64,000 bases of DNA, taken from positions 1,736,001 to 1,800,000 of the forward strand of contig NZ_CP107853.1 of NCBI RefSeq assembly GCF_036013525.1, read 5' to 3'. The position numbers and the translations under genes were made by a program. The notes under the pieces are model-generated. The model ran no database searches. It was not told where the DNA came from and saw only the letters and a list, made by a program, of their open reading frames with translations. Within the stretch, counting starts at the first letter, position 1; the number at the start of each line of letters is the position of its first letter. This DNA comes from Nonomuraea sp. NBC_00507 (GTDB lineage Bacteria; Actinomycetota; Actinomycetes; Streptosporangiales; Streptosporangiaceae). Below are positions 29,236 through 53,449 of the stretch, in pieces.

Positions 29236-29322
29236 GGTGGTGTCGCCTAGTGGCCGAGGGCGCACGCCTCGAAAGCGTGTGATGGGGCAACTCATCCGTG
29301 GGTTCAAATCCCACCACCACCG
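29236..29322 (+). tRNA. tRNA-Ser (anticodon CGA)
   Basis: An 87-nt class II tRNA. The acceptor ggtggtg pairs with caccacc, followed by discriminator G. The anticodon stem cacgc/gcgtg encloses loop ctCGAaa; there is a long variable arm, and the T arm is gtggg-ttcaaat-cccac. CCA is not encoded. Its 3' 23 nt belong to the attL repeat of the island. Confidence 0.97.
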
Positions 29323-29370
29323 CCGCTAAGTTGGGCCTCCGACCTGCACTAACAGGTCGGAGGCCCTTCG
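29300..29370. repeat. attL: 71-bp repeat covering the tRNA-Ser 3' end
   Basis: Identical except for one base (t at 29350) to 41470-41540. It covers the last 23 nt of tRNA-Ser(CGA) plus its terminator hairpin. This is the usual signature of tyrosine-integrase insertion into a tRNA 3' end that keeps the tRNA intact. Confidence 0.93.
29333..29370 (+). terminator. Terminator of tRNA-Ser(CGA)
   Basis: A perfect 14-bp stem: gggcctccgacctg (29333-29346) pairs with caggtcggaggccc (29353-29366), with a 6-nt loop, 10 nt after the tRNA. The same structure is duplicated at the right end of the island (41503-41536). Confidence 0.85.
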
Positions 29371-29483
29371 TCTGCCAAGATCATGGGGGCATTTTGGGGG
29401 CATCGGCCCTCAGCCAAGATCACGCAGACGGGTTCCCGGTGGCGGTGGTCGCTCACCTTCCGACCCGGAAGGAACGCCAGAGA

Positions 29484-30836
29484 ATGGCATCGATCGAACC
29501 GCGCAAGGGCGCGAAGGGGCGCGTGAGCTACCGCGTCGTCTGGTACATCGATGGCAAGCGTGAGAACGGACGCGACACCGAAACGTGCGACTCACACGCG
29601 ATTGCCAAGCACTTCAAGAACCTCGTCGAGCTGGCCGGTGAGAACCGCCCGGTGGGCTACCCCAAGCGCTGTAGGGGGATCGGCATCGACCAGCGGCTTG
29701 AGCCCGAGCCCGTCCCGGCTGCTGCGGCCGGTGGCAGCAGCCCGCCGACCGCAGCCGACGTACCCACGTTGGGCGAGATCCTCGACCGGTACCTGAACCA
29801 GCCGAACCACCCGGCCGAGGAAGTGCAGCGCATCGGCTACCGGCGCCAGTTCGACCGGCACGTCCGCCTCGCCGTCGTGACGCTGGAGGACGGCACCCGC
29901 GTCGGCCCGCTCGGTGGGCTGCCCGTCACCGAGTACACCGCTGACGTCGACCAGGCATGGGTCATCTGGATGCAGGGGCGCACGCACCAGGTCAAGGGTG
30001 AGCTGGTCCCGTACTCGGCGAAGACCATCCACAACATCCACGGCGGGATCATCTCCCCGACCCTGGCCTACGCCAGCGTCAAGGGGCTCATCGACGCCAA
30101 CCCCTGCGACAGCGCTCGGCTTCCGGAAAAGTCGGTGCGCACCGTGACGCGCGATGAGGTGCCGACCGCCGAGGAGATCGCGTTCTGGATCGCGCTCGCC
30201 TACCAGGTGAGCGAGTTCGCCGGCGACCTTGTCACGCTGGCCATCGCCACGGGCTTGCGCTTCGGGGAGCTGACCGCGCTGCGGCGCTGCGACGTCGACC
30301 TCAAGCGGCGCCTGCTTACCGTGGCCGGGGCGATCAAGGAGCGGCGCGAACCGCGTGAGCTGTACCGAGCCAACTACGGCAAGACCGACACGGCCTAGCG
30401 GACCATCCGTATCCCCAAGAGCGCGCTGTTCATGCTGCAGCGCCGGATGGAGAACCTACCGCCACAGGGGCTGCTGTTCACCGCGCCCAGGGGCATCCTG
30501 CACTCCAACGGCTGGTCACGCACCTGGACCAAGGTTGTCGACCTGGCGCAAGAGTCGGGCATCCTCACCGCGGCCACGCTGCACAAGATGCGCCACTTCC
30601 ACGCCACCGAACTCTTGGCGGCCAACGTCTCCATGGACACCGTCAGCCGCCGCCTCGGCCACGCCTCAGTACTCGTCACCAGCGCCATCTACGGGCACCT
30701 GACGCCGAAGGCAGACCAGCGTGCGGCCAACATCCTGGACGCCGTGATGGGCGGTGGCAAGCCGAAGAAGCGGAGGAAGAAGTCCAAGAAGGAGAAGAAG
30801 GCCGTGGCCAGCCTCCTGCAGTCCATCCCGGCCTAG
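29484..30836 (+). pseudogene. Tyrosine integrase interrupted by one in-frame TAG
   Basis: One frame of 451 codons encodes a phage-type integrase but has TAG at codon 305 (30396-30398). The N-terminal part (304 aa) has the AP2/SAM-like DNA-binding regions and the first catalytic Arg in TGLRFGEL. The part after the stop (145 aa) supplies HKMRH (His-x2-Arg), GHASVLVTSAIYGHL (His and the catalytic Tyr), and a Lys-rich tail. No other lesion is visible, so it is either newly broken, a sequence error, or read through. Adjacent attL supports the integrase role. The ATG at 29484 has an upstream ggaagga. Confidence 0.9.
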
Positions 30837-31149
30837 CGCCTGGTCGCACCGAACGCGCTCAGTCGCATGGAGTGGCAGGGCGCGTTCCGCCGGGTCAGTC
30901 TCGCCCATGCAGGCTCATCGAGGTTAAACGGGGTTAGGGACCTCTGTGCGTGTGCTGAGTCAGAGAAATCAGCGAAACCGCTGACGAGCTTCCTCGATCT
31001 CGCTGCGCCCGGCGTCTACCGTGTCGCTTGCCCCCTTAGGTCACTCCGGTGACCTTGGACAGCAGTCCCGTGGATCACCCCCTTACACGGGATTTCCCGT
31101 ACATCCCATACACGCGGACACCGTAGCCGAGCACGTAAGGGGGCAGGCG
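30837..31149. other. Intergenic stretch without a recognisable gene
   Basis: 313 bp between the broken integrase and the leader reading frame of the PD40 gene. I see no convincing reading frame on either strand. An inverted motif ccttacacgg/tcccgta near 31080-31110 may be part of the downstream promoter, but nothing is strong enough to call. Confidence 0.5.
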
Positions 31150-31251
31150 ATGAAGAGACAGACCATGGCTGCGACACGGATCGCCGTCGAGCAGGTGGCG
31201 GGCGCACAGAAACCGGGGGCATCGCAACGGGGGCCGTCGGCCGGGCGGTGA
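31150..31251 (+). CDS. 33-codon leader frame or displaced 5' end of the PD40 gene
   Basis: It begins MKRQTMAATRIAVEQV after a strong taaggggg ribosome binding site and stops at TGA (31249-31251), overlapping the next ATG in TGATG. The downstream gene has no good start of its own, and its frame continues upstream as TGGIATGAVGRAV. So this looks either like a translation-coupled leader peptide or the true N-terminus displaced by an indel in the run near 31208-31222. Confidence 0.4.
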   Translation: MKRQTMAATRIAVEQVAGAQKPGASQRGPSAGR

Positions 31252-32108
31252 TGGCCGTGATCACGGCTGCCATGACGGTCGTGACGACCATGGGCATGGC
31301 CGCGGTGCCAGCGGGGGCGGTGGTCCCGGGCGACAACGGCAAGATCGCTTTTTCCAGCTTCCGGGACGGCAAATTCGAGATCTATGTGATGAACGCCGAC
31401 GGCAGCGGGCAGATCAACCTCACCAAGGACCCCGCAGGTGACTCTGCCCCGGCGTGGTCACCGGACGGCACCAAGATCGCCTTAACTAGCAACCGGGACG
31501 GCAAATTCGAGATCTATGTGATGAACGCCGACGGCAGCGGGCAGATCAACCTCACCAAGGACCCCGCAGGTGACTCTGCCCCGGCGTGGTCACCGGATGG
31601 CACCAAGATCGCTTTTGCCGACTTCCGCGGCGACGTCGAGATCTTCGTGATGAACGCCGACGGCAGCGGGCAGACCAATCTCACCAACAACCCCACGTCG
31701 TTCGACGGTGAACCGGCGTGGTCACCGGACGGCACCAAGATCGCCTTCACCAGCACTCGGGACGGCAGCAACGAGATCTATGTGATGAACGCCGACGGCA
31801 GCACGCAGACCCGTCTCACCAACAACCTCGCGAATAACCTCCAGCCCGGCTGGGCCATCGCCGTTACCGCCCCCACGATCAAGAGTCGCGTGACTCAGAC
31901 TCACGGCCGCATTCAGAGCCGCAGGCACAGCGAGAGCCGCAGCCACAATGTGCAGCAGAGCCAGGGCCACACCCAGAGCCACGGCCAGAGGCACACCCAG
32001 AGCCACGGCCAAAGCCAGGGACAGCACCAGGGACAGCGCCAGGAGCAGAAGATCCATATCAAATGCCACGATCGCACGGGTGGCCGCTGCCGGGTCCCGA
32101 TTGATTAA
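31248..32108 (+). CDS. Secreted TolB-like PD40 repeat protein with His/Gln/Ser-rich tail
   Basis: 286 aa. A hydrophobic secretion segment (residues about 2-24, ending AVPAGA) is followed by four PD40 beta-propeller repeats of about 44 aa with IYVMNADGSGQ and AWSPDGTKIAF. At DNA level the first two repeats are nearly identical tandem copies with a 132-bp period (31361 and 31493). The last 70 residues are low complexity (repeated QSHG/HTQSHG). Four blades alone would not close a propeller. The function is unknown; binding or surface interaction is likely. Confidence 0.7.
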   Translation: MMAVITAAMTVVTTMGMAAVPAGAVVPGDNGKIAFSSFRDGKFEIYVMNADGSGQINLTKDPAGDSAPAWSPDGTKIALTSNRDGKFEIYVMNADGSGQINLTKDPAGDSAPAWSPDGTKIAFADFRGDVEIFVMNADGSGQTNLTNNPTSFDGEPAWSPDGTKIAFTSTRDGSNEIYVMNADGSTQTRLTNNLANNLQPGWAIAVTAPTIKSRVTQTHGRIQSRRHSESRSHNVQQSQGHTQSHGQRHTQSHGQSQGQHQGQRQEQKIHIKCHDRTGGRCRVPID

Positions 32109-32267
32109 TCGTCTTGGCGCCCCAGTGCACGCGGGCCGACGGCCGCTCGTCAGGGCCATGCGCGCGGTCGCGGGCAGGTAGGCGGCCAACCACCTCCCGC
32201 AAGCAGAGGACCCCGGTGCCCTCTCAAGCCCGCTGTGCCCGACGGAACCCCCAAACCCCGCAGATTC

Positions 32268-32301
32268 GCAACGGCACCTCTCCGAGGAGAGGTGCCGTTG
32301 C
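32268..32301. terminator. Perfect 16-bp-arm hairpin in a gene-poor gap
   Basis: gcaacggcacctctcc (32268-32283) and ggagaggtgccgttgc (32286-32301) are exact reverse complements around ga. It lies 160 bp after the PD40 gene with no T run. It could be a terminator or an insertion-sequence end. The surrounding 32109-32412 shows no gene. Confidence 0.5.
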
Positions 32302-32412
32302 TATGACGCCCTACCTTCTCGCTGAATGGCCGCTTCTAAAGCCCGGCGAGCTGCTTCGACTGGTTGTAACGGGTCAGATAATCCCAGTGAGCGCCGGATC
32401 TCGGGATACTCA

Positions 32413-32574
32413 TGCGCGGGACGCTCCCGCTACCGCAGGACCGCCAAGACCCACCTCCAGCACCTGCTCATCGCCGCGGCAATGAACCTCACCAGACTCG
32501 ACGCTTGGCTCACCGGAACGCCGCTGGCCCCGACCCGCACCTCGCTTTTCGCCGCTCTGCGTCCAGCAGCATGA
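32413..32574 (+). pseudogene. C-terminal remnant of an IS1182-type transposase
   Basis: The last about 53 codons (RSRYRRTAKTHLQHLLIAA, then MNLTRLDAWLTGTPLAPTRTS and a stop) match the conserved C-terminal end of IS1182-family transposases. The rest of the gene is missing; upstream sequence in this frame is unrelated. Family assignment rests on pattern memory of this ending. Confidence 0.55.
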
Positions 32575-32606
32575 CGAGTGGGCGTTTCGTTTTGTCTGCT
32601 CCCGGG

Positions 32607-32730
32607 TCAGGTGCCGCGCCAGGTGGGGTGTTCGCTGGTGAGGCGGCGGGTCATGAGGTCGATCATGGCGATGTGGACCACGGGTTCGGAGCGGTCGGGG
32701 AGTGCTTCCTACAGTTCCCCACGGAACTGG
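32607..32730 (-). pseudogene. C-terminal remnant of another transposase
   Basis: Reading the minus strand gives LPDRSEPVVHIAMIDLMTRR, then LTSEHPTWRGT and a stop at 32607. This is the typical C-terminal ending of IS4/IS5-like actinobacterial transposases. Only about 35-40 residues remain. Together with the neighbouring remnant it marks an old insertion hot spot inside the island. Confidence 0.5.
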
Positions 32731-32761
32731 AGGCCGCACGGCAGGCGCAGGGAGGACGGTT

Positions 32762-33445
32762 TCACTCAGCTGGCGGGCTTGTGGACAGCGGTGGCGTCTG
32801 CGGAGCAGGAACCTGTTTGAAGGCGTTCGAGACCCCGGGCATGCTTTTCGCCCTTGCAATCACTGGACTGTAGTCCGTGTCGGGTTCCATGATGACAAGA
32901 AACGACTCGTGCATGTCCTTGGTCTCTACGTCCGTCATTTGAGGAACGGCTTTGCGGAATCTGGCGAGTGCGCCGGCCTGGTCCTCGAACGTGACGCTCT
33001 CGACACCCGGTAGTTCGTTCAGCATCCGGTCGATGTCCGCCTTTTGCTGTTCGGTGGCCGCCGTACCGCCGCCTGCCGGGGTGTCCCTGCTGCCCGTGCC
33101 GCCTCCGCACGCGGCCTCGATGTCGTCGTGCTTGCACAGAAAGACCCTGATTCCCAGCTCTTTCGTGCTCATCAGAGCGAACTGCTGCAGGCTCGACGCT
33201 CTGACGTCGTGATCCGTTGCGGCACGGTGATCCGGCGACGGGGCAGCCCTGGGCGCCAGTGCGACCGCGGCCACGATGCCGGCGAGGGCGACAGGTGCGG
33301 CCACGGCCACAAGCCGCAGCCGGAGGGAGAAGCCGCGACGGCGACGGGTGGCGAAGGCGCGCGCGAGGTCGGTTTCGCGGCGGCGCTGGTAGGCGTCGTC
33401 GGTGTTGGGGCGCAAGGAGGTGATCAGGCCGTTGAGGTCGTTCAT
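32762..33445 (-). CDS. Membrane protein with FtsX-ectodomain-like domain, partner of the ECF sigma
   Basis: 227 aa. An N-terminal cytoplasmic region (MNDLNGLITSLRPNTDDAYQ) could hold sigma, one membrane helix lies at about 52-72, and the extracellular domain follows. That domain resembles the FtsX ectodomain: RVFLCKHDD...ACGGG, then LNELPGVESVTFEDQAGALARF and HESFLVIM. The tail is proline-rich. The ATG overlaps the sigma stop by 4 nt (ATGA), the standard sigma/anti-sigma arrangement, so a membrane anti-sigma role is inferred. Confidence 0.7.
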   Translation of the reverse strand: MNDLNGLITSLRPNTDDAYQRRRETDLARAFATRRRRGFSLRLRLVAVAAPVALAGIVAAVALAPRAAPSPDHRAATDHDVRASSLQQFALMSTKELGIRVFLCKHDDIEAACGGGTGSRDTPAGGGTAATEQQKADIDRMLNELPGVESVTFEDQAGALARFRKAVPQMTDVETKDMHESFLVIMEPDTDYSPVIARAKSMPGVSNAFKQVPAPQTPPLSTSPPAE

Positions 33446-33945
33446 GACTGCTCCAGGAACGTGGGCTGGGTGAGGTTGAGCGCGTAGGTGAGACGGCGTC
33501 GGGCGCGGTGCAGCCGTACGTTGAAGGTGCGAGCCGAGCAACCGGCGATCTTCGCGGCCTCGGCCGGGGTGAGCCCGTACCAGCTGGCTAGCAGCACGGC
33601 CTCGGCATCGAGCTCGGATAGCTCCGCGAGCGCTGTCAGCGCCGCCTGCCTCTCGGCCACCTGCTCGGCCACGTCGTCAGCAGGGGCAAGTTCGGCGAGC
33701 CGCGCGACCAGGTTGTGCCTGCGCGCAGTGGTGCGGCGTTGCGTCCGTACCAAGTTGCGAGCCACGCCGAGCAGCCACGGCAGCGGCGGCTCCGGTAGGC
33801 GGCCGAGTTTTCGCCACGCGATCACAAAGGTCTCGCTGGCAATGTCCTCGGCCGTCTCCTGATCGGCTCGCAGCAGCACGTAGCTGAGCACGCTGCGGTA
33901 GTGCTCCTCATACAGCGCGGTGAGTCGCGCTTGTGAATCGTCCAC
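33442..33945 (-). CDS. ECF RNA polymerase sigma factor
   Basis: About 167 aa. Sigma region 2 is residues about 12-70 (LYEEHYRSVLSYVLLRADQETAEDIASETF region) and region 4 about 105-160 (LSELDAEAVLLASWYGLTPAEAAKIAGCSARTFNVRLHRAR region). It is transcribed with its membrane partner. The start is uncertain: I use the GTG at 33945; a TTG at 33963 is also in frame. The 236 bp upstream (33946-34181) hold its promoter and no other visible gene. Confidence 0.87.
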   Translation of the reverse strand: MDDSQARLTALYEEHYRSVLSYVLLRADQETAEDIASETFVIAWRKLGRLPEPPLPWLLGVARNLVRTQRRTTARRHNLVARLAELAPADDVAEQVAERQAALTALAELSELDAEAVLLASWYGLTPAEAAKIAGCSARTFNVRLHRARRRLTYALNLTQPTFLEQS

Positions 33946-34181
33946 GCCTGGTAATGACCTCAACAGCCCCTTGATTACCTGTCCAGGGAGAAATGATCTC
34001 TAGGATCCCCTTCCACCGTTCTTGGTATGTGTGATCTCAGCGGTGAAACTGGCCAGACACACGTCCTCCGACACGTGATACGCCCCGAGATCACAGTGGT
34101 GATCCCGGGGGCTTCCGTCTTATCTACTTCGCCAACAGGGTCTCTTTCGGAAGGGCGGGGGCACTTCGTCGTGCTCTACGC

Positions 34182-34541
34182 CTACCTGGTGGTCGCGTGG
34201 TGTACTGCCGTGTGGCTGACGATGATTGGTCGAGGCGGCAGCGACGGCTTCGCCTTTACGATCACCTTTCCATTCAGCAGGACTTGGGCAGGATCCGCCT
34301 CGCCTTGGGTGTCTAATCCCGCATCCTGTATCGCGCGAACCGCCTTGTCGGCCGCGGTCTCGCCCTTCTCGGTGCTGGTCCCCTCGAGGAGGTAGAGGTT
34401 TACCGCGTCGTGCTGGATGTAGGCGATGGCGTCCCCAGGGAATGGGGCGTGCTGCTGGATGCTGTCGTCATTTTCGTGGACGACGAATCCCGTGCTGGTG
34501 AGAGCAGCGTTGAGTTGCAAGAGCGTATGTTCGGTACTCAC
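34182..34541 (-). CDS. Hypothetical protein, about 119 aa
   Basis: It starts at a GTG (34541) behind agaaagaaagc, reading VSTEHTLLQLNAALTSTGFV. The protein is soluble, with an acidic centre and a basic tail. I do not recognise a family. A longer frame extends to 34592. It lies between the sigma gene and a small membrane frame on the same strand. Confidence 0.45.
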   Translation of the reverse strand: MSTEHTLLQLNAALTSTGFVVHENDDSIQQHAPFPGDAIAYIQHDAVNLYLLEGTSTEKGETAADKAVRAIQDAGLDTQGEADPAQVLLNGKVIVKAKPSLPPRPIIVSHTAVHHATTR

Positions 34542-35046
34542 TATTAGCTTTCTTTCTAGAGACACCAGTGATGCCAGATCGGCAAAGGCCAACTAGAGGG
34601 TACCGACAGATCACGATCGGGTTACATTTCGCGGCAGCCGAGCCAGCGGCCGGAGTGACCGCGAGGAAGACGAGCAGGCCGCCCACCAACACGAGTACCA
34701 GCGCGGCGGCCCCGCCGCCAGACTCGATGATGGCGAACGCCAGACCCATCGGCGCGACGGTGGTGCCGATGGTGACGAGATTCTCGCCATCGCATAGCGG
34801 CGATAGCGGCTGTTGGTACGGAGGAGCTCCACGGCCGGGGCAAGACGTTGAAACGTCATGACGTGGGGATCTCCCCTCCTCCAGGGGGCGCGCTGCTGCG
34901 CTGTGGGAGTGTGCCTGTGACCGATAGATGGCCCCTGTGAACGATAGGTGGCCCTGCTCGACGACCAAGCGATCAGATGGGTGTGCCCGCGGCACGCTCG
35001 GACGTCGGCACGGCCCGTCTTCGGCGTGTGCCGGTTGAATGCAGGC
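34542..35046. other. Gene-poor stretch with a short hydrophobic minus-strand frame
   Basis: On the minus strand, 34600-34795 encodes a hydrophobic segment (MGLAFAIIESGGGAAALVLV, then LVGGLLVFLAVTPAAGS) that could be one or two membrane helices. It has no convincing start codon in frame; an ATG with MTFQRLAPAVELL lies upstream in a neighbouring frame, so a frameshift is possible. Nothing else is recognised. Confidence 0.3.
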
Positions 35047-35574
35047 ATGAACAATCCGCTTTGGGAGGCCTTGCCCGCGCAGGTGCGCTCCCAGGTCGAT
35101 GATCTCGTGACGAAGGGCAACAATCTCCAGGCCGTCAAGGTGATCCGGGAAGCCCTGGAGGAGCCGCGGCCAGGGCTCTACGAGTGCATGGATCTGGTCG
35201 CCGAGCGCTTCGAAGACCTCGGGCAGCGGTTCACCCGCTCACCAACCGTCCCGTTGGATCTCGACGAACTCATGGCCAAGGTCCGGGCCCTGCCCCACGC
35301 ACCCGCAGCAATTGAAGCTCTTTGGGACGGCGATAGCGAAGGATGGATGGTCTACCTTCTGGCCGTCACGATTGAGCCGAGGGCCGAGTATCAGCTCGCG
35401 ATCATTCAGCATGGGACCGACCTCCGTCTATTCAACGGCGAGGTCCCTCCGTGGCCGGAGGCTCAGGAAGCCAGCACCATCGGGCGAAGGCTGGCAGAAC
35501 GGTTCGGTATCCCGTTTCATTTTGCGAGCCCAGAGGAACCAGACTTCGCTCCGCGCTGGTGGGGTTCGGACTGA
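35047..35574 (+). CDS. Hypothetical protein, 175 aa
   Basis: Starts MNNPLWEALPAQVRSQVDDL. The N-terminal third is helical (VTKGNNLQAVKVIREALEEP, like short immunity-type or TPR-like proteins), followed by a mixed domain with WMVYLLAVTIEPRAEYQ and a C-terminal PEEPDFAPRWWG. No family recognised. The codon usage looks native. It stands alone on the plus strand of the island. Confidence 0.6.
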   Translation: MNNPLWEALPAQVRSQVDDLVTKGNNLQAVKVIREALEEPRPGLYECMDLVAERFEDLGQRFTRSPTVPLDLDELMAKVRALPHAPAAIEALWDGDSEGWMVYLLAVTIEPRAEYQLAIIQHGTDLRLFNGEVPPWPEAQEASTIGRRLAERFGIPFHFASPEEPDFAPRWWGSD

Positions 35575-35683
35575 CCAGGCAAGCTCGTCGAGCCCCAGCT
35601 CGATCTTGTGGAGTTGATCTCATTTCGGGATCGGCTATGAGGAAGCGTCGGCTGGGTTCGACGCGACATGGTGTGCTTTGTTC

Positions 35684-36180
35684 GTGACTTTGAGTAAACT
35701 CGGTCGGGTCCGGTCTGATCGATGTGGGCTGGAGGAACTGTTTCCCGCCTACGTAATCGACCAGGCGGTATGGGAGCGGCTTCGGTTGGGTCCGGACTGG
35801 CCGCGACGGTGGATGGGCGCGTGGCGGACGCCGAATGGCGAGGTGGGGTGCGCGGTTCGAGATCTGGGGTCGATGTCAGCGGCTGGGTGCGAGCCGGTCC
35901 GTCGCTTCTCTTGCCGGGCGCAGCAGCGGCACCGGCCGGGATTGGAGTTCCTGGTGTCCACGGGTCGTCTGCACGGGTTCGAGTCGCTGGCCCTCATGAG
36001 AGACGCCCGGCAACGTCTCCGGCGGCTGGCGAGCCCTGTCTCGATCACGCCCTGGACGGAGTGTGGGCACCTGCTGTGTCTGTTCGGCGTGGCATGCGCG
36101 CACCGGTCGCGCCCCACCTGTAAGGTGCGAACCTCCTTCCTCATAGGCCACGCGCTTTCCTTAGGAGCTGACTGTGTCAG
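35684..36180 (+). pseudogene. Possible TnsA-like endonuclease remnant
   Basis: From a GTG at 35684 the frame reads VTLSKLGRVRSDRCGLEELF, then PVRRFSCRAQQRHRPGLEF and STGRLHGFESLALMRDARQR. The last block resembles the G-x-HVGFES-x-LER start of actinobacterial TnsA-like proteins. After about residue 130 the frame loses resemblance and runs into the NUDIX gene, so the 3' part is lost or frameshifted. The assignment is tentative; an unrelated hypothetical protein is possible. Confidence 0.35.
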
Positions 36181-36249
36181 TGCTCGTCGCTCACATCCGA
36201 GGAATCGGTTACGGAGAGCTTTGCTGTCGGGCTGGTGTGGGGGTGCCCC

Positions 36250-36801
36250 GTGGCGATCGGTGACTCGGACATCGCGAGCGCGCTTTCCGCATACCTTGAG
36301 CGCTACCCGGACGAGGCCGCGCTGCTGTCTGAGCCGGTGCAGCTGCTGTCTCAGGGAGGGGATTTCGCGTCGCGGCGGAACTTCCGGATGCACGCGACCG
36401 TCGGCGCGTTGCTTGTCCGCGGTGGCGTCGAGGTCCTGCTTGTCGAGCACCTCGCGTACGGGATCCCGTTGCAGCCCGGAGGTCACCTCGAACCGACCGA
36501 CGTCTCCTTGATCGACGCGGCAGTGCGGGAGTTGACCGAGGAGACCGGTGTCGACCCCGGCAGGGTCGTCCCAGCGTCGCAGACCCCCGTCTACATCGAG
36601 TACGGGAGGGTGCCGGCACGACCGGCGAAGGACGAGCCGGAGCACCACCACCTCGACATCGGGTATGCGTTCGTGACAGATGCGGACGTGGGGCACATCC
36701 AGGAGTCCGAGGTGAGGGGTGCCGCCTGGTACCCGCTCGCCGAGGCCGAGCGCCTTGTTGGGCACCGCATTGCGCGTGCGGTACCGGCCCGGATTGGTTG
36801 A
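36250..36801 (+). CDS. NUDIX hydrolase
   Basis: 183 aa from the GTG at 36250 (another GTG at 36235). The NUDIX helix is GGHLEPTDVSLIDAAVRELT followed by EETGV, a variant common in actinobacteria with one extra residue before REL. A His-rich segment EPEHHHLDIGYAF follows. NUDIX enzymes cleave nucleoside diphosphates linked to another group; the substrate is unknown. It overlaps the end of the preceding degenerate frame. Confidence 0.85.
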   Translation: MAIGDSDIASALSAYLERYPDEAALLSEPVQLLSQGGDFASRRNFRMHATVGALLVRGGVEVLLVEHLAYGIPLQPGGHLEPTDVSLIDAAVRELTEETGVDPGRVVPASQTPVYIEYGRVPARPAKDEPEHHHLDIGYAFVTDADVGHIQESEVRGAAWYPLAEAERLVGHRIARAVPARIG

Positions 36802-36956
36802 CCGGACCCGTCGAACGCTTCCGGTCGGCAGAGGCGCCAGGTCGCGGTGTGCACCGGTCGAGGCTCCGCGGTCGCTGCTCGCTCCTTGTCGAACCGAACG
36901 CGGAAGCCTCGACGGTCGCAGCCTCAGCCGGGCATCGGCCGAGCTGTGGCGTCCAC

Positions 36957-37595
36957 TCACTCGAAGCACGGTTTGACGGTCCGGTCCCGGCTCCGTTTGA
37001 GCTCGAAGAAGCCGTCCGTCCCGGCGACCAACACCAGGCCGTCCCAAAGTCGGCCGGCAGCTTCACCACGGGGGGCCTGCCTGATCACGGGGCCGAACAG
37101 GGCCGTACCCGCGATGCGGAGAACGGGCGTCCCGACATCCAGGCCGACCTCCGTGAACGCCTCGTCGTGCGAGTCTCTGATGAGCTGATCGAACTCCGTG
37201 CTTGTGGCGGCAGCCGCCAGCGAACCAGGCAGGCCCACCTCCGCGAGCGCTTCGGTGATAACGGTGGGATCGTTGCGACGCCCTTGGTTGTGGAGCCGGG
37301 TGCCGATCGCGGTGTACATCGGTCCGAGGACGCCGCGGCCACCGTGCTCAGCGGCTGCCGCGCAGACCCGCACCAGGCCCCATGCCTTCGTCATCAGGTC
37401 CCGGTAGTCCTCGCTGAGTCCCTTGCCCTCGCGCTGGACGAGGTTCAGGTAGGCCAGCGACATGATCCGCCAATCGGCGCGCACCGGCCGCACCTGCTCG
37501 ACCTCCAGGAGCCAGCGCGAGGTGATCCACGCCCAGGGGCACAGCGGATCGAACCAGAACGGGACCTCGTCGCAGTCCGAGTGTTCCTTGATCAT
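36957..37595 (-). CDS. DsbA-fold mycothiol-dependent nitroreductase-like protein
   Basis: 212 aa. The DPLCPWAWITSRW motif (Cys19-Pro-Trp-Ala) is that of the Rv2466c family, thioredoxin-fold enzymes that use mycothiol. An all-helical insert (about 60-130) and the C-terminal GTPVLRIAGTALFGPVI cis-Pro strand follow. Rv2466c-like proteins reduce electrophiles and activate nitro prodrugs. The protein starts 36 nt before the first strand; a later start would not remove the motif. Confidence 0.83.
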   Translation of the reverse strand: MIKEHSDCDEVPFWFDPLCPWAWITSRWLLEVEQVRPVRADWRIMSLAYLNLVQREGKGLSEDYRDLMTKAWGLVRVCAAAAEHGGRGVLGPMYTAIGTRLHNQGRRNDPTVITEALAEVGLPGSLAAAATSTEFDQLIRDSHDEAFTEVGLDVGTPVLRIAGTALFGPVIRQAPRGEAAGRLWDGLVLVAGTDGFFELKRSRDRTVKPCFE

Positions 37596-37653
37596 CAGAA
37601 GAGCACCGTCCTCTCTCAGACCGGATCTGTATGTGCCCTCTCCCGCCGGAAGG

Positions 37654-38310
37654 TTAGGTATCGAACAATTCTTCTTGGGCGGGCATGTTGCACTTGGCCG
37701 TGCGCCCCGCGATCTTCACCAGAGCCGCGAGATCGCTGAGCTGATCGTCCGCGGCGCTGACGAGCCGGACGAACACCTGCGCGGTGACATCGACGTCGGC
37801 ATAGGCCCTGTGGCGATCCGCCGGCAGTTTGATGGCGAAATGCGCCAGCAACGTGTCGAGTTTGTGGTTCGGCAGACCTGGGGCGACGTATTTGGCCAGC
37901 GGGATGGTGTCAAGAAGGTCAATGCGGGCCAGCGCCGGGCAGTGCTCGCGCTGGTTGTGGATGATGTTGGCCTCGGTGGCGGCGTGTTGAGCCACCAGCA
38001 AGTACTGCTTGTCCGGAGCGAATCGCCGATCCAGTGCGCCCAGCGCTTCGGCCGCAGTCGGGGCCTGCCCGACCTGCTTGGGGGTTAGGCCGGTTTGAGC
38101 CGTAACGGCTGGCGTCACCGGAGCAAACGCGGGCGGTCGGATGAGAGAAGCGCTTCTGCCGACCTCCGTCCACGTGCCGTCGTCGTAGCGGAGTGCGAGA
38201 GCGGCGACCTCGATGGGCTGGGCCGGGTACCCCTTGGGAGTCGTCGCCTCGAAGTCGATGACCACGAACGTCGTGGCCAAAAAGGCGGGGTCTTCCGTCA
38301 ATCCGCCCAT
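37654..38310 (-). CDS. DEDDh 3'-5' exonuclease (DnaQ-like)
   Basis: 218 aa from the ATG at 38310. Exo I is FVVIDFEATTP (Asp-x-Glu), Exo II lies in AQHAATEANIIHNQ, and Exo III is HRAYADVDVT (His and Asp). The core is complete and resembles stand-alone exonucleases of the ExoX/polymerase III epsilon superfamily, which act on single-stranded DNA or RNA. A longer frame to 38424 lacks a ribosome site. Confidence 0.82.
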   Translation of the reverse strand: MGGLTEDPAFLATTFVVIDFEATTPKGYPAQPIEVAALALRYDDGTWTEVGRSASLIRPPAFAPVTPAVTAQTGLTPKQVGQAPTAAEALGALDRRFAPDKQYLLVAQHAATEANIIHNQREHCPALARIDLLDTIPLAKYVAPGLPNHKLDTLLAHFAIKLPADRHRAYADVDVTAQVFVRLVSAADDQLSDLAALVKIAGRTAKCNMPAQEELFDT

Positions 38311-38401
38311 GTATCCACCGCTCTCGCAGGTTCCGTGGCGTTGCCGCCCCACGCCCGCCACATCGAGAAGAGCATGCCCGAGTGCCAGCCGTCCTGTGCC
38401 G

Positions 38402-38962
38402 TCATTTACTGATGAGGCGCGCAACGGCCTGCGTGGCGGCCTTCAGGTCCGGCGCGTTCCAGAGTCGCTCGCCCGTCCAGGTCTCGCTCAGGGACCGGTA
38501 CAGATCCGACATCACCGGCAGGAACTCGGGCGGGAGTGGTGCCGGCTGCGGCCACCGACCCCTGGGCACGCCCTCGGCGATCAGCCTTCTGACGGGCACC
38601 TCGAGCCCGTTGTCCACGTACCAGTTCCGCAGGACCTGCTTGCCGCAGTGCACGCCGTTGAACATCAGGCGGCTCTCGTCAGGTGTACCGGGACTGTCGG
38701 CAAGCACGATGCCCGCATCGCTCGACACCAGGAACTCGACCTTGCCGTCGGAGTGGCTCAGCCCGAGCTTGCGTGCGTGCCCGGTCAGCACCTCGTTGAC
38801 CTTGACGGTGGTGTCGCGCATCGCCTGGAACTGCTCGTCGCTCAGGCCGGCGAGGCGCTGGGCCTCGGGCCCGCTCCCCATTTGGCCGCCAGGTTGTCGC
38901 AACGTATGGCCTGCCGCGGGAAGCTCAGAATGCCCGACGAACGACCTTTCATCTAGTTTCAT
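38402..38962 (-). pseudogene. Truncated PurC-like (SAICAR synthase) protein
   Basis: 186 codons. The C-terminal half matches SAICAR-synthase-like proteins: LSHSDGKVEFLVSSDAGIVL, then ADSPGTPDESRLMFNGV, CGKQVLRNWYV and ETWTGERLW. The N-terminal ATP-grasp half (about 100 residues) is missing; instead there is a short unrelated stretch from an ATG at 38962. PurC joins aspartate to CAIR in purine synthesis. Without the nucleotide-binding lobe it should be inactive. The family call is by motif memory. Confidence 0.6.
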
Positions 38963-39003
38963 GGCGGCCGAGCAGGTCAGGGGCGGTGGCCTAACTCGCT
39001 TCC

Positions 39004-39060
39004 TTGACGTGGTACCGACCCTTTCGTACGGTTCACGCACCCGAATGGAAAGCGTTTTCC
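39004..39060 (+). promoter_or_regulatory. Promoter and LacI-type operator of the pectate lyase gene
   Basis: -35 TTGACG (39004-39009), 17-bp spacer and -10 TACGGT (39027-39032). From 39047 to 39060, just past the expected start of transcription, lies the palindrome ggaaagcgttttcc (GGAAA/TTTCC arms). It resembles LacI-family repressor sites that sense sugars, so induction by plant-derived oligosaccharide is likely. Confidence 0.6.
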
Positions 39061-39074
39061 CGACGGAGGTCGTC

Positions 39075-40019
39075 ATGCAACGTCTTAGCGCCGCCACCGC
39101 CGTACTGGCTCTGGTGGTCAGCGTCCTGGTGAGCGCGGAACCGGCCCTCGCCGCCGAGTCCAGCCCCGTCGGATTCGCCAGCATGAACGGCGGTACGACC
39201 GGTGGCGCCGGTGGCTCGACCGTCACGGTCTCCACAGCCTCGGCGCTGGCCAGCGCGCTCAGCTCCGGCAGCACCCAGACGATCCGCATCTCCGGCATGA
39301 TCTCCATCTCCGGGATGTACCGGGTGGCCTCCAACAAGAGCATCCTCGGCGTCGGATCCGGCTCCGGTCTCAACGGTGGCGGGCTGACCATGAACGGCGT
39401 CAGCAATATCATCATCCGCAACCTGACCATCCAGAATTCCAGCGACGACGCCATCAACGTTCAGGACGGCTCGCACCACATCTGGATCGACCACAACAAC
39501 TTCACCCGCGCCTCGGACGGTCTCGTGGACATCCGCCTGGCCTCCGACTTCGTCACCGTCTCGTGGAACCGTTTCTACGGCCACGACAAGACTGCGCTCC
39601 TGGGATCGTCCGACAGCAACACCGGCGACATCGGCCACCTGCGCGTGACCTACGTCCACAACTGGTTCGACGGTACCAACCAACGCCATCCCCGGGTCCG
39701 CTTCGGCAATCCGGTGCACGTGCTCAACAACTACTACTCCAACATCGGCAGCTACGGCGTTGCCTCCACCACCAACGCCGGCGTCTACGTCGAGCGCAAC
39801 TACTTCGAGAACGTCAGCCGCCCCACGTCCCTCCAAGAGGGCTCCTCGCCACAGGGCAACATCAAGCTGCTCAACAACTACCTGGTCAACTCAGGCACGC
39901 CCCAGTCGCGCAACGCGAGCAGCGTGGCCACGATCCCGTACTCCTACACCCCGGAGTGCAACTGCTCGGTGAAGTCGACGGTCACCGCGGGCGCTGGCGT
40001 GGGCAAGATCGGCCTCTGA
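39075..40019 (+). CDS. Secreted pectate lyase, PL1 family
   Basis: 314 aa. A Sec signal peptide (MQRLSAATAVLALVVSVLVS, cleaved after ALA near residue 27) is followed by a right-handed beta-helix. Family motifs are WIDHNNF, FVTVSWNRFYGHDKTALLG and RHPRVRFG, the last two near the calcium and catalytic Arg sites. It cleaves polygalacturonate by beta-elimination outside the cell. The ATG at 39075 has a ggaggtcgtc site. It carries its own sugar-type operator and lies within the island, a niche-adaptation gene by position. Confidence 0.93.
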   Translation: MQRLSAATAVLALVVSVLVSAEPALAAESSPVGFASMNGGTTGGAGGSTVTVSTASALASALSSGSTQTIRISGMISISGMYRVASNKSILGVGSGSGLNGGGLTMNGVSNIIIRNLTIQNSSDDAINVQDGSHHIWIDHNNFTRASDGLVDIRLASDFVTVSWNRFYGHDKTALLGSSDSNTGDIGHLRVTYVHNWFDGTNQRHPRVRFGNPVHVLNNYYSNIGSYGVASTTNAGVYVERNYFENVSRPTSLQEGSSPQGNIKLLNNYLVNSGTPQSRNASSVATIPYSYTPECNCSVKSTVTAGAGVGKIGL

Positions 40020-40444
40020 GATCCAGTGCTGGCGGGCCTTCCGAATGGCCCGTGCGCCCGCCGGCCCTGCCGCGTCAACTGTTACAGACCTCTCCCGCGG
40101 GGGATCATGCTCCCTCGTGGGAGAGAGGGCTCGGCGCCGTCGCCGGCCTGCTGCCGGTGCCCCGTAGGGCCCGTAGGCCGAGATCGCCGAGAGCCACCCC
40201 CGGCTTGAACGTCGCCCTGATCACCACGAGCCCGCCACGATAATGGGCGGCAAGGCCCGCGCCGCTCGTCCTCAGGTCTACTGCCTGGGTGACCTGAGCG
40301 CGGGAGAGCATCTCCCGAGCCAGCTTGGCCCTCATCTCGTCATCGCGCACCAGGCTTCGGCGCTTCCGTCCTCCACCGGCCACTCTCCTGCACTGGCTGG
40401 GTTGACTGAGTGGCCGGCGGCAACAACGACGACACGGTCTGTGC
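40020..40444. other. Gap after the pectate lyase gene
   Basis: A short hairpin (cgggcc/ggcccg, 40033-40052) may end the lyase transcript. A 92-codon minus frame at 40105-40383 (MAGGGRKRRSLVRDDEMRAK) has no recognisable domain or strong ribosome site, so I do not call it as a gene. Nothing else seen. Confidence 0.45.
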
Positions 40445-40846
40445 TCAGTCGGCGTCCCAGAAGGCGTCCTCGTCCTGCTGAATGGCGGAGAACAGCCACA
40501 CCTCAGCGATTTTGCCGTCTTCGACCCTCAGCACGTCGACACCGTCCATCGACATCTCAGCGCCGTTGCGCTTGGCGGAGAAGTGGACGGGAAACGCGGC
40601 AAGTGCGTCGTTGATCATGGGCTCGCCGGTGATGGCGATGTCGAGCGTCCCCTCGGTGGCGGCCATCTGGGCGCCGATCGCCTCGTTGACCGCGTCGCGG
40701 CCACGGTAAGTGCCGGAGAAGCGGTGATTGCCGGGCTGGTGCCACACGATGTCATCGGCGAACAGGCCCGCGACGGCGGCGAAGTCCTTGGCGGCCATCG
40801 CGTCGGCGTACTGGCGGGCGACGGTGAGCGTAATGGTGGACCCCAT
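40445..40846 (-). CDS. SnoaL-like (NTF2-fold) protein
   Basis: 133 aa from the ATG at 40846 behind ggagaagatcc. An NTF2-fold cone with the pattern YADAMAAKDFAAVAGLFADD, DIVWHQPGNHRFSGTYRG and VLRVEDGKIAEVWLF typical of SnoaL-like domains, which act as isomerases or small-molecule binders. It diverges from an HxlR regulator through a 100-bp region containing an inverted repeat, so it is the probable target of that regulator. Confidence 0.83.
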   Translation of the reverse strand: MGSTITLTVARQYADAMAAKDFAAVAGLFADDIVWHQPGNHRFSGTYRGRDAVNEAIGAQMAATEGTLDIAITGEPMINDALAAFPVHFSAKRNGAEMSMDGVDVLRVEDGKIAEVWLFSAIQQDEDAFWDAD

Positions 40847-40904
40847 GGTGGATCTTCTCCCTTGTGTTTCAGGTTCGTCCTGGTGCGGCCCTATACTCAC
40901 CATC

Positions 40905-40918
40905 GGTAACCATTTACC
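40905..40918. promoter_or_regulatory. Inverted repeat in the SnoaL/HxlR divergent promoter
   Basis: ggtaa-ccat-ttacc is a perfect 5-bp-arm inverted repeat 29 bp upstream of the HxlR start and 59 bp upstream of the SnoaL start. A candidate HxlR operator. Confidence 0.4.
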
Positions 40919-40947
40919 TCAACGTAACTAATTAGGGAATGTGGCGC

Positions 40948-41316
40948 ATGTCACAGCATCCGGACTTTAATGTGCTCACGGCGACCTGCCCGTCGCGCAC
41001 GTCGCTGGCCCGCATCGCCAACAAGTGGACGGCGATGGTGGTGATCGCGCTCAGCGCCGGCAGGATGCGCTTCGGCGACTTGCGGACCACGGTCGACGGG
41101 ATCAGCGGGAAGGTCCTCACCGACACGTTGCGGGACCTGGAACGCGACGGGCTTGTCGCGCGGTACGTGTACGCCGAGATGCCGCCCAGAGTCGAGTACG
41201 AACTGACCGCGCTGGGACGCACGCTGCACGAGCCCCTGCAGGCGCTGGGCCGCTGGGCCGAGGAACACATCAAAGAGGTGCTCGCGGCCCGCGAGACCTA
41301 CGACACCCGCCACTGA
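40948..41316 (+). CDS. HxlR-family transcriptional regulator
   Basis: 122 aa. The winged-helix fold has the HxlR pattern SRTSLARIANKWTAMVVIAL (with a Cys nearby, CPSRTS, common in the redox-sensing branch) and GISGKVLTDTLRDLERDGLV. I chose the ATG at 40948, 10 nt after aggga; the ATG at 40939 is too close to that site. Probably controls the divergent SnoaL gene. Confidence 0.85.
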   Translation: MSQHPDFNVLTATCPSRTSLARIANKWTAMVVIALSAGRMRFGDLRTTVDGISGKVLTDTLRDLERDGLVARYVYAEMPPRVEYELTALGRTLHEPLQALGRWAEEHIKEVLAARETYDTRH

Positions 41317-41373
41317 CTCCTCGAAGCCGCGACGCTGAAGATCCTTTGTGAGCCCCATTTGGGGGAACGAGCC

Positions 41374-41423
41374 GTCCGGACCAGTCCGCATCCGTCCGGG
41401 AGAGTCTGGATACGTCCGCCCCT
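41374..41423. repeat. Five 10-bp-phased repeats just inside attR
   Basis: gtccg begins at 41374, 41384, 41394 and 41414, with a variant gtctg at 41404: five units at exactly 10-bp intervals. The last unit ends 46 bp before attR. Helical phasing suggests a protein-binding array such as integrase arm sites or excision-factor sites. Confidence 0.6.
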
Positions 41424-41469
41424 ACGGGGTAGTCTGCGCATGATCACAGGCCCGAAGGGGTGGGCGGAC

Positions 41470-41540
41470 GGGTTCAAATCCCACCACCACCGCCGCTAAG
41501 TTGGGCCTCCGACCTGCACCAACAGGTCGGAGGCCCTTCG
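41470..41540. repeat. attR: right copy of the 71-bp island boundary repeat
   Basis: Matches 29300-29370 except position 41520 (c instead of t). It contains the 3' end of tRNA-Ser and the terminator hairpin but no tRNA 5' half, so it is the displaced original or element-borne copy. The island is therefore about 12.2 kb. Confidence 0.93.
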
Positions 41541-41974
41541 CATAACAAGATCATGGTGGAACCGTGGTGATGGCCAGGCGCTGTAGTCGTTCTCGACCGC
41601 GGCCAGTTGTACCCGCAAGTCCTCGGCCTGCCGTGTGCAGCCGTCTCGCCCTGGGGCCACGCGTTCCAACAGTGACGTCACCATCGCCTCCTACAGGAGA
41701 AGCGGCCGTACCCGCCTGCCGCATTCACGCCATGCAGCCCAACAACTCCACACTGTAACGGCGAACCACTGACAGTCACTACCGCACTCAAGTCTGTCCG
41801 CGGCAGTCAACGTTGACGCTTATCTGAGCCGAGCTCAACCCCGCGGGAATGTCGGCCGCCTCTGGCAAGGGGGCCTGACCACCACAGTCGATCACCCTCA
41901 GCACGAGACAAGCGGGGAAACTCTCGCAGTAGCTGCCTACCGATCAGCGGCCGGCGAGGCACAGTTGCCGATGA
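41541..41974. other. Gene-poor stretch right of attR
   Basis: A 62-codon minus frame at 41496-41684 (MVTSLLERVAPGRDGCTRQA) reads across attR; its helical charged part could be a remnant but has no family match. Otherwise no gene is seen before the SARP remnant. Confidence 0.4.
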
Positions 41975-42289
41975 TCAGAGACAGTCCCGCCTCGAAGACA
42001 GCGTCGCCGGACAGCCCAGCGCGGCGGCCAGCGCCTGCCCGCGCCAGAGCCCGAGCGCCTGGCGGATCCCGTGGCTGTCGCCCGCGGCCAGCCGCCTGAA
42101 CTCGTGGACGTCCACCTGGCCCGGCTCGGTCACCGCGGCATAGCCGCCGGGACGTGTCTGCACGATGTTCTCGGCCTGCGCCGCGCGCAGCATCCGGCGT
42201 ATCGCCATCACCGACGCCTGGACCTGTGCCTTGGCCGTCTCTGGTGGGGTCGGCCCCCACATCGCCTGGATCAGCCGGTCCGTGCTCAT
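41975..42289 (-). pseudogene. N-terminal remnant of a SARP/AfsR-type regulator
   Basis: About 104 codons starting MSTDRLIQAMWGPTPPETAK, with RRMLRAAQ and RPGGYAAVTEPGQVDVHEFR, the winged-helix (OmpR-like) domain and first residues of the BTAD domain of SARP activators. The frame stops after ALGLWRGQALAAAL, where a full SARP would continue for 150 residues or more. A neighbouring frame ends DAVFEAGLSLIIGN, suggesting a joined fragment of something else. It diverges from the LysR gene. Confidence 0.6.
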
Positions 42290-42346
42290 TCCAATGGCCT
42301 GACATGTCATACTGCGCCACCAGTGAACGATCTCGACGAGGGATCG

Positions 42347-43246
42347 ATGGGGAGCCGCGTGGAGCTACGGGACATCGAGATCTTTCTGACCCTCGCCGAG
42401 GAGCTGCACTTCGGCCGCGCGGCGGAGCGGCTGCACGTCTCCGTGGCGGCGGTCAGCAAGGCAATCAAGAAGCAGGAACGGTCCATCGGCGTCGAGCTCT
42501 TCGCCCGCGACAGCCGCAATGTACGGCTCACGCCGGTGGGTGAGCAGCTCCGCGACGACCTGCGCCAGCTGCATCAGGGGTTGACGCAGAGCCTGGAGCG
42601 GGCCCGGCTGGCGGCCCGGGGCAAGACGGGCACCCTCCGGGTGAGCCTGTTCCCGGCCAACATCCAGGAACTGCGCCGCTACTGGGAGACCTTCCGCGCC
42701 CGCCACCCGCAGTGGGAGCTGCGCCTACGGGTGTCGGCCTACCAGGATCCGTTCGCCCAGCTACGCAACGGGGAGGTCGACATCCTGATCACCTGGCTGC
42801 CCGTCGAGGAGCCCGACCTCACGGTGGGTCCGCTGCTTTTCGCCGAGCCGAGGGTGCTTGCCGTGGCCGGCGACCATGCGCTCACCCGATGGTCCTCGGT
42901 CTCCCTGGAGGCGGTCAGCGATTTCCAGCACATCACCGTCGAGTCTGCGCCCGGCTACTGGTTCGACCACTTCGTCCCGAAGCTCACCCCCAAGGGCCGG
43001 TTGATCGACCGCACCGCCAACGTGAACAACCTCGAGGAAGTCTTCATGCACACGGTCCTGGGCGAGGCCGTCACCCTCTTCCCGGTCCACGTGAGTTGGT
43101 ACTTTCCTCGCCCCGACATCGCCTATCTGCCTGTCACGGACATGGAGGCGCTGCCGTACGGGCTGGTGTGGCGCAACGATGCGGAGAACGACATGATCCG
43201 CGCCTTCGCCCGCGTGGTGCGTGATCTGGGACCACTGCCCGGCTGA
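42347..43246 (+). CDS. LysR-family transcriptional regulator
   Basis: 299 aa. The N-terminal helix-turn-helix (residues about 5-65; RDIEIFLTLAEELHFGRAAERLHVSVAAVSKAIKKQER region) precedes a LysR substrate-binding domain (about 90-295). The ATG at 42347 has a gaggga site. It stands divergent to the SARP remnant and upstream of a glyoxalase-fold gene on the same strand, its possible target. Confidence 0.92.
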   Translation: MGSRVELRDIEIFLTLAEELHFGRAAERLHVSVAAVSKAIKKQERSIGVELFARDSRNVRLTPVGEQLRDDLRQLHQGLTQSLERARLAARGKTGTLRVSLFPANIQELRRYWETFRARHPQWELRLRVSAYQDPFAQLRNGEVDILITWLPVEEPDLTVGPLLFAEPRVLAVAGDHALTRWSSVSLEAVSDFQHITVESAPGYWFDHFVPKLTPKGRLIDRTANVNNLEEVFMHTVLGEAVTLFPVHVSWYFPRPDIAYLPVTDMEALPYGLVWRNDAENDMIRAFARVVRDLGPLPG

Positions 43247-43383
43247 GACCGTCAACCATGGGTTAACGACCGTTGCGATAGTCGCCGTTGATCCACAGCA
43301 CTGCCCGGCGTGATGCTTGATCCATCCAAAGAACACGCCCGTCGGGAGGTAAATCGGGATATGCCCTTCTCTGGCGCTATGGC

Positions 43384-43764
43384 ATGAACATCGTCACTTC
43401 CGCTGTATCCCTGACCGTCGCAGACCCCGCCGCTTCCAGCCGGTTCTTCACCAGTCATCTCGGCTTCCGAGAAGTCCTGGTCGGCGAGGAGTTCATCGCG
43501 CTTGGCCGTGACGACGCGGCCGTTGACCTGGTCCTGGTGGAGCGCGACCTCGAGCGGTGGCAACCGGGACAGGGGCTGGCGGAGGTGATCGTGGTGTTCA
43601 CGGTCACCGGCCTGGCCGCCGAGTACGAGCGGCTACGCAGCGAAGGCGCCACCATCACCATCCCGCTCCGGCGGGAGCCGTGGGGCGAGCTGCTGATGCA
43701 GCTCACCGACCCCAACGGCGTGAAGATCCAGCTCACCGAGTGGATTCCCCCGATCAGGGGCTGA
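43384..43764 (+). CDS. VOC/glyoxalase-fold protein
   Basis: 126 aa, two beta-alpha-beta-beta-beta modules (MNIVTSAVSLTVADPAASSRF, then EVIVVFTVTGLAAEYERL, LLMQLTDPNGVKIQLTEW). It resembles glyoxalase/bleomycin-resistance proteins; the metal-binding Glu and His positions are not clearly complete, so the role may be binding instead of catalysis. The 137 bp from the LysR gene hold its promoter. Confidence 0.85.
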   Translation: MNIVTSAVSLTVADPAASSRFFTSHLGFREVLVGEEFIALGRDDAAVDLVLVERDLERWQPGQGLAEVIVVFTVTGLAAEYERLRSEGATITIPLRREPWGELLMQLTDPNGVKIQLTEWIPPIRG

Positions 43765-44016
43765 CTCCCGACCGGCCGGCCTGGCCCGTGCCGTTCGCCG
43801 TCACCGGCATCAGCGCGGCATGCGCTGCCGCGTCAGTGACCGTGTCAGCGGCCCCGTCAGCACGGCGACGGCCCGGTATCAGAGCGGTCGGCGACGGTAG
43901 ATGCCGTGACCACGCCGAGTTCACCCCCCCGATCCTCGTGGGTCGCGCATCGAGCCATGAGCGCCCCGCCGGGGCGAGTCTCGCAAGATCGAACACTGTA
44001 TGCAAGGAGGTTCATG
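43765..44016. other. Intergenic region, no gene seen
   Basis: 252 bp before the serine hydrolase gene. It ends with a strong ribosome binding site (aaggagg at 44004-44010). No reading frame or clear promoter element is evident. Confidence 0.5.
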
Positions 44017-45246: not shown

Positions 45247-45439
45247 CACCAAGCCCCCGCCCGGCAGACCCGCCCGGCGAACCCGCCCGCGACACCCGAC
45301 GGGCGGCCCTGTCTGCCTCATGCCGGACCGGCCGGGGCGTGGCCTACGCCCGCGAGACACCCGGAGCACCAGCAGCACCGCGCTCCTTCTTACGTGTCGT
45401 TCCAGCGAATTTCCTCACACCTTAGAAGGGTTCACCACC

Positions 45440-45847
45440 ATGTCCATGACTCTGACCGATCAGGACAAGACCACCCTGCGCACCGCCGCATACGGTGCCG
45501 TCACGCTGATGTCCGCCGCCGATGCCGCCGGCAAGCCCCACAAGGCCGCCACCGAGGGCTCCATCGCCCTGTCCTCCGCGACCGGCCTGGTCGGGCACGT
45601 GCTCGCCGCAAAAAGCAGGGACATCAACCTGAACGGCAAGTCCACAGCCGCACTCGCCGACCAGGTGCTGCCGGCCCTGACCGCGGCCATGAGCCTGCTC
45701 AAGCAGCAGGACCCGGCCGAGGCCGGCAACTTCCGCCGCACCGTCATCGTCGCCATCGAAGCAGCCGCCCGCACCCACCGGGGCGAGCCCAGCCCCACCA
45801 TCGCCGACATGACCCGCAAGATCACCGAAGCCCTCGACGCGGCTTGA
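45440..45847 (+). CDS. Hypothetical all-helical protein, 135 aa
   Basis: Starts MSMTLTDQDKTTLRTAAYGA behind gaaggg. Ala/Thr/Leu-rich, predicted entirely helical, no signal or membrane segment. A small actinobacterial family of unknown role is likely; some homologues are mislabelled SbcC exonuclease. It precedes the peptidase gene on the same strand by 45 bp. Confidence 0.65.
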   Translation: MSMTLTDQDKTTLRTAAYGAVTLMSAADAAGKPHKAATEGSIALSSATGLVGHVLAAKSRDINLNGKSTAALADQVLPALTAAMSLLKQQDPAEAGNFRRTVIVAIEAAARTHRGEPSPTIADMTRKITEALDAA

Positions 45848-45891
45848 GGACACCTCGACTCGCACAGCTACAGCTTGTTCCGCACAGCTCA

Positions 45892-47760: not shown

Positions 47761-47903
47761 CTTGATCGATCTTCGCGAACGGTCGCGGCCGGGCGCCTTT
47801 CTTCAACTCGCACGGGTTGTTGAACGACTTTGACGATACCGATGTAGTGGGCGGAAGGACGTCCGGGTGGATGATGCGTCGCCCCGTTTCTCGCGGGGTG
47901 TCG

Positions 47904-52619: not shown

Positions 52620-52691
52620 CCGTTCCCGCGCAACTACTCCGTACGGCCTGCTCAGGCGCACTTGACCGGTGACGAGCAAGGGAAGAAGTAG

Positions 52692-53126: not shown

Positions 53127-53170
53127 TTGAGGTTCGATCTTGACCTGAGGTCAGGGTGCACGCTGAACGG

Positions 53171-53400: not shown

Positions 53401-53449
53401 TGGCCGTCTGCGGCTGTGTCTGCGCGGGCTGCTGCTAGGCGGTGGTCTG

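Follow-up and report, generated by a model that had tools for sequence, protein, structure and literature searches.

A tRNA-Ser(CGA) gene in Nonomuraea sp. NBC_00507 very probably carries a stack of two foreign islands, here called A and B. It lies within a stretch of 64,000 nucleotides (RefSeq assembly GCF_036013525.1, contig NZ_CP107853.1, positions 1,736,001 to 1,800,000), hereafter the window, to which unprefixed coordinates refer. In the history that we favor with high confidence, island B integrated first, island A entered the left attachment (att) site of B, and a later deletion removed the right end of B. The principal parts of the locus are the following.

29236–29324, plus strand: tRNA-Ser(CGA), the integration site, called by ARAGORN
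29300–41469: island A, the newer island
29300–29324, plus strand: att core, left copy, formed by the tRNA 3′ end
29333–29366, plus strand: terminator hairpin of island A, predicted by folding; element-borne by comparison, as the native terminator of the same species differs
41470–41494, plus strand: att core, right copy, read as the right att site (attR) of island A and the former left att site (attL) of island B
41470–53388: island B, the older island, in its extent in the window
41503–41536, plus strand: terminator hairpin of island B, predicted by folding, within a left end shared with genome G068
41541–53388: remnant of island B, with 47855–53388 common to G068 and 41563–47854 absent from B in that genome
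53388/53389: deletion junction, island B up to 53388 and native DNA from 53389 (the G068 match ends at the former position, the G075 match starts at the latter)
53389–53821, minus strand: host gene shortened by the deletion (a 286-aa frame in G075)

A preliminary description of this DNA, made from the sequence alone, had proposed a single 12.2-kb island between two 71-bp repeats containing the tRNA 3′ end and a terminator. The repeats themselves are as described: 29300–29370 and 41470–41540 agree in 70 of 71 bases, the sole mismatch being T at 29350 and C at 41520, and identity extends more weakly to 90 bp at 93%. A whole-genome search found these two copies and no third in the 12.89-Mb genome. 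The direct repeat of the tRNA 3′ end bounds island A at both sides, and both att copies indeed carry a terminator, with predicted hairpins of −33.3 kcal/mol (left) and −33.8 kcal/mol (right), far below the shuffled sequences (−13.6 and −14.8 kcal/mol).

Alignment of the flanks with close relatives lacking the insertion, the check put forward at that stage, revealed an empty site in the same-species genome G075 and in all 20 same-genus relatives fetched. In each of the 20, tRNA-Ser(CGA), with or without its terminator, is followed within 0–538 bp by the counterpart of window 53390–53916, with no island sequence in between. Genome G075 is 98.6% identical to the window over the 2,666 bp that end with the tRNA, continues with 443 bp of its own and resumes at 96% from 53389, so that about 24 kb has been inserted, rather than 12.2 kb. 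The proposal of an integrase-bearing insertion at the 3′ end of tRNA-Ser(CGA) therefore holds, with an empty site in G075, while that of a single 12.2-kb island does not, since the insert reaches 53388. Farther along, two of the 20 show other island-like matches: G001 has a partial match to window 43841–45845, and G010 an 86-bp match near 40.2 kb.

The genome of a close relative, G068, contains island B alone. There, tRNA-Ser(CGA) leads into a left end identical to window 41470–41562 in 91 of 93 bases (85 of 93 for the copy at island A), then by 5.5 kb of cargo matching window 47855–53388 at 91.9%, a right end 90% like window 41338–41512 and an att core, after which come a native terminator and a gene resembling those of G075. 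The match between this left end and the right repeat of the window implies that the right repeat is the former attL of the older island B, and places island A between B and the tRNA. A single 12.2-kb insertion that duplicated 71 bp of host DNA together with the terminator, leaving 41541–53388 as unrelated host DNA or the product of a separate event, would suit the near-identity of the two copies but is highly improbable: the native terminator of the same species differs, downstream of the right copy comes the left end of an element, which stands beside the tRNA in G068, and 41541–53388 is missing at this place in 21 genomes. The idea that the right repeat and its terminator are a host copy made by insertion fails on the same native terminator and on the presence of B's left att site in G068.

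In G068, island B has both att sites and no integrase match; in the window, its outer att site is gone. Missing from the window are about 0.9 kb of the right end of B, the att site, the native terminator and the 3′ part of the host gene. Opposite window 41563–47854, G068 has 674 bp without notable similarity, and relatives of parts of this stretch, up to 89% alike, occur elsewhere in the five genomes searched. The left end of B resembles the left end of a prophage integrase unit in G185. Read at the level of sequence, the locus is found empty (G075), with B only (G068) and with A on B (window), and these three states show one tRNA locus gathering foreign genes.

The repeated terminator appears to come from the elements and not from the host. 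The terminator after the tRNA in G075 is unlike both window copies, and the native terminators of the genus, varied as they are, have a common GGGCCTC-type stem. More informative is the motif that follows the element terminator: AAGATCA was absent within 160 nt of the tRNA in all 30 genomes whose flank was inspected (50 loci, some genomes appearing twice). A pattern search for the left-end motif, allowing up to 3 mismatches, returned 5 of 54 genomes of the genus: that of the window (2 places), G066 (3 places), G059, G060 and G068. All 15 left ends at this tRNA have a hairpin after the core, predicted at −24 to −37 kcal/mol (−10 to −16 kcal/mol in mononucleotide shuffles). In 7 of the 15, island A of the window included, there is also a pair of 8-bp direct repeats, 10–11 bp apart, with 7 or 8 bases matching; the pair is weak or absent in the other 8, among them island B of the window and G068. 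The relatives linked to transfer-messenger RNA (tmRNA), G194 and G061, have the same order of parts and a perfect repeat pair.

Insertions that stand singly behave differently from the window. The insertions of G185 (36.4 kb) and G181 (6.8 kb) duplicate no more than about 25 nt of tRNA sequence, and the terminators differ between the two ends of each insertion. In G066 (three att copies) and G248 (two), the inner att copies are followed by an element-type terminator and the left-end motif; stacking is less clear in G205 than in these two, and in G241 a single att copy was found in 40 kb. The terminator is thus repeated in the window because elements carry terminators and have been stacked, and a repeat that includes the whole terminator, earlier called unusual, follows from these two circumstances. 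A long terminator-containing repeat at a tRNA may accordingly mark stacked elements and not the bounds of one.

Element-free sites in G021 and G010 have tRNA terminators similar to those of the elements; lost elements may have left them as scars, or they may be donors. In G248 and G205 the second att copy lies 3.8 and 3.9 kb from the first and is followed by element-type terminators, so stacking seems recurrent in other genera. At G059 C1:7690620, a left end with a 16-aa integrase scar adjoins tRNA-Ser(CGA), about 9.7 kb from the native flank.

We propose the following course of events. Island B would have joined the tRNA at its final ~25 nt, so that the gene came to be followed by the terminator of B. 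Island A, whose integrase belongs to a family known from prophages, would then have entered the left att site of B beside the tRNA, leaving a core and the A terminator next to the tRNA and a core and the B terminator between A and B. Integrase-mediated strand exchange in the core presumably made each join; each element would restore the tRNA end, and a later one would land between the tRNA and its predecessor. A subsequent deletion would have taken the right end of B, its attR, the native terminator and part of the host gene, the order of the last two events being inferred. The terminator would keep transcription of the tRNA and of the integrase gene (int) apart. The single mismatch between the window copies tracks lineage, A agreeing with G066 and B with G068, which would put the crossover upstream of 29350, either in the core or early in the terminator, as far as one base can indicate.

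Several observations weigh against this history. Native terminators can resemble those of the elements: alignment to the window continues beyond the tRNA gene in 9 of the 20 relatives, and in G021 the terminator and the right copy are 89% alike over 74 bp; such cases may represent scars, donors or simple resemblance. Between the two window terminators, 1 of 46 bases differs, while A differs from G066 in 3 of 46 and B from G068 in 1, so that exchange or conversion within the terminator is possible. Island B of the window holds 6.3 kb missing from G068 and hence differs between the two genomes, and the stop codon in the integrase of A, described below, is known from one assembly only. Finally, A and B could have arrived together. 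A composite of about 24 kb, containing an att copy inside it, that arrived once and lost its right end later would agree with the adjacency of A and B, and composite transfer is described for accreted elements in a Streptococcus study (PMC7563491); we nevertheless consider it unlikely, given that B occurs alone in G068 and that the integrase lineage of A occurs without B in G066.

Stepwise stacking leaves the nature of island A to be considered. Its ends and integrase comprise the following features.

29384–29402, plus strand: direct repeats TGGGGGCA in a pair 11 bp apart, candidate arm sites for the integrase of A
29484–30836, plus strand: island A tyrosine integrase, interrupted by TAG at 30396–30398; intact ortholog in G066
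41338–41469, plus strand: right end of island A, with CCCCATTTGGGGG at 41353–41365; homologs at two right ends in G066 and in G068

A tyrosine integrase gene does lie just inside the left copy, as first reported, with the addition that an in-frame TAG at 30396–30398 interrupts its frame, so the gene next to the att site is not intact. Compared with the G066 ortholog, 46 synonymous and 31 nonsynonymous codon differences fall among the 304 codons before the stop, and 21 and 9, respectively, among the 145 after it. Preservation of the frame on either side of the TAG fits either a nonsense mutation that arose recently or a fault of this one assembly. The window copy of A is probably frozen, as its integrase gene is cut and the other integrase matches in the same genome, among those listed, reach only 34–41% identity over part of the query. 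With the integrase stopped by the TAG, neither island should move unless a related integrase acts in trans, and the label "mobilisable" given to the element becomes doubtful.

Integrases matching the G066 ortholog at E 1e-50 or better were found in 10 of 297 genomes of the family. Seven of these genes adjoin tRNA-Ser(CGA) and one a tmRNA gene (G194); the sequence pieces bearing those of G079 and G149 yielded no RNA gene call. The closest intact integrase found is that of G066 (91% identity), and the G185 integrase is 63% identical. A scan of genome contigs gave four distant loci only, and matches in plasmid and phage records were all under 60% identity. For the 98-kb unit between the first and second att copies of G066, ten proteins were scanned and eight had PHROG matches, to terminase, portal, protease, capsid, tape measure, minor tail, endolysin and ATPase, and the G185 element has portal, capsid, terminase, protease, tail and endolysin genes along with type I restriction genes.

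The cargo had been said to lack replication and transfer genes, and no such family (FtsK/SpoIIIE-type Tra, Rep) was indeed found among the window open reading frames scanned with Pfam or NCBIfam. For island B, the scan for transfer genes covered the window copy and found no such family. There is no sign of an actinomycete conjugative element: the related intact integrases of G066 and G185 belong to units with tailed-phage genes. An origin from an actinomycete integrative and conjugative element (AICE) was rejected, as no Tra or Rep occurs among the window proteins scanned.

Whether A is a decayed prophage, its interior replaced by host-type genes, or a small integrase-only cargo island is a question on which we are evenly divided. 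The intact G066 ortholog starts a 98-kb att-to-att unit with phage genes, and the 36.4-kb element of G185 also has prophage genes, which speaks for decay. However, no phage structural, packaging or lysis family was detected in the 10 window proteins scanned with PHROGs (a subset of the open reading frames), and small att-to-att units at this tRNA (3.8, 3.9 and 6.8 kb in G248, G205 and G181) indicate that small size may be stable.

An array of stacked units occupies G066 C9:1816719–1934195, where three att copies start at 1816719, 1914540 and 1923312, and the tRNA end and the native flank lie about 117 kb apart. It consists, in order, of the 98-kb prophage-bearing unit, an 8.8-kb unit and a unit of about 10.9 kb; the last starts with an integrase scar and, by eye, contains sugar-transport-like genes. 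We tentatively speculate, regarding it as possible more than probable, that a family of actinomycete prophage integrases retains an att module, made up of the tRNA 3′ end, a terminator of its own and paired arm sites, that makes insertions transcriptionally neutral for the tRNA, and that integrase-less islands can thereby be stacked at tRNA-Ser(CGA) and carried along with related prophages, giving rise to arrays like the one of about 117 kb in G066.

No report on this locus was found in the open-licence literature. Accretion and terminators borne by phage attachment sites (attP) are already described, and the locus is a well-resolved new case of known kinds. In Streptococcus, one study describes tandem accretion and att-bounded cis-mobilizable elements (CIMEs) (PMC7563491). 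The present locus likewise has att-bounded elements stacked at one site and cargo units without an integrase, such as B of G068; unlike CIMEs, derived there from conjugative or mobilizable elements, it involves an integrase family found in prophages, and B of the window is without its outer att site. Tandem AICEs in Frankia and Streptomyces avermitilis similarly place two elements at one actinobacterial tRNA, but AICEs carry Int, Tra and Rep, and no Tra or Rep family was found here (PMC3218068). In the attP of Cluster K1 mycobacteriophages, the core is separated from an arm-type site by a putative stem-loop terminator, and the arm repeats are 11 bp long; the hairpin after the core is shared by the left ends here, and the putative arm repeats have a counterpart in part of them; the target there is tmRNA, in contrast to tRNA-Ser(CGA) (PMC3203893). 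For ICEKp1 of Klebsiella, int is described as transcribed from the tRNA promoter, with stem-loops in its leader acting as attenuators, and the host terminator as displaced by integration to the distal end of the element, as in G185 and G181; unlike in ICEKp1, a strong predicted hairpin here directly follows the tRNA (PMC13023037). Elements using the tRNA promoter for int can thus be set against terminator-bringing elements that presumably do not.

The cargo of the islands is host-like. The whole cargo of A spans 31251–41316, and its annotated features, followed by those of B, are listed below.

31251–32108: PD40 propeller, A
32762–33445: FtsX_ECD-type protein, A
33442–33945: ECF sigma factor, A
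36250–36801: NUDIX protein, A
36957–37595: Rv2466c-like protein, A
37654–38310: exonuclease, A
about 38402–38960: SAICAR synthetase fragment, A
39045–40019: pectate lyase, A
40445–40846: SnoaL protein, A
40939–41316: HxlR protein, A
42323–43246: LysR protein, B
43384–43764: glyoxalase, B
44014–45246: beta-lactamase-family hydrolase, B
45892–47760: S15 peptidase, B
47904–51521, minus strand: nSTAND1-WD40 protein, B
52101–52619: ricin-B lectin, B

Defense profiles run on 10 window proteins matched the exonuclease alone (DEDDh; weakly PDC-S48). Reading the stretch before 53388 as a hydrolase found no support, the best match of a PDB sequence search having E 0.29. The PD40 gene holds 132-bp tandem repeats (31340–31867), with related copies at G000 C1:9742716–9744158 and in G075 C71 near 183–187 kb. 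The SAICAR synthetase match covers the later part of the gene only, probably a fragment. Block 37656–38653 is 87% like G000 C2:117361–118364. Window 35986–38874 is 96–98% identical to the contig ends C75 and C61 of G075, another genomic place, where the Rv2466c-like gene seems to be broken by an insertion with a 6-bp overlap at window 37175–37180. The block may have moved here from a native position, and its flanks were compared with this in mind: one matches G000 C1 near 1.287 Mb, in pieces only, and the other was not found within the 20 kb examined at that locus. Beyond the islands, a tRNA-Ser(GGA) gene (60634–60721, minus strand) faces tRNA-Ser(CGA), and the length of the stretch between the two varies much among relatives.

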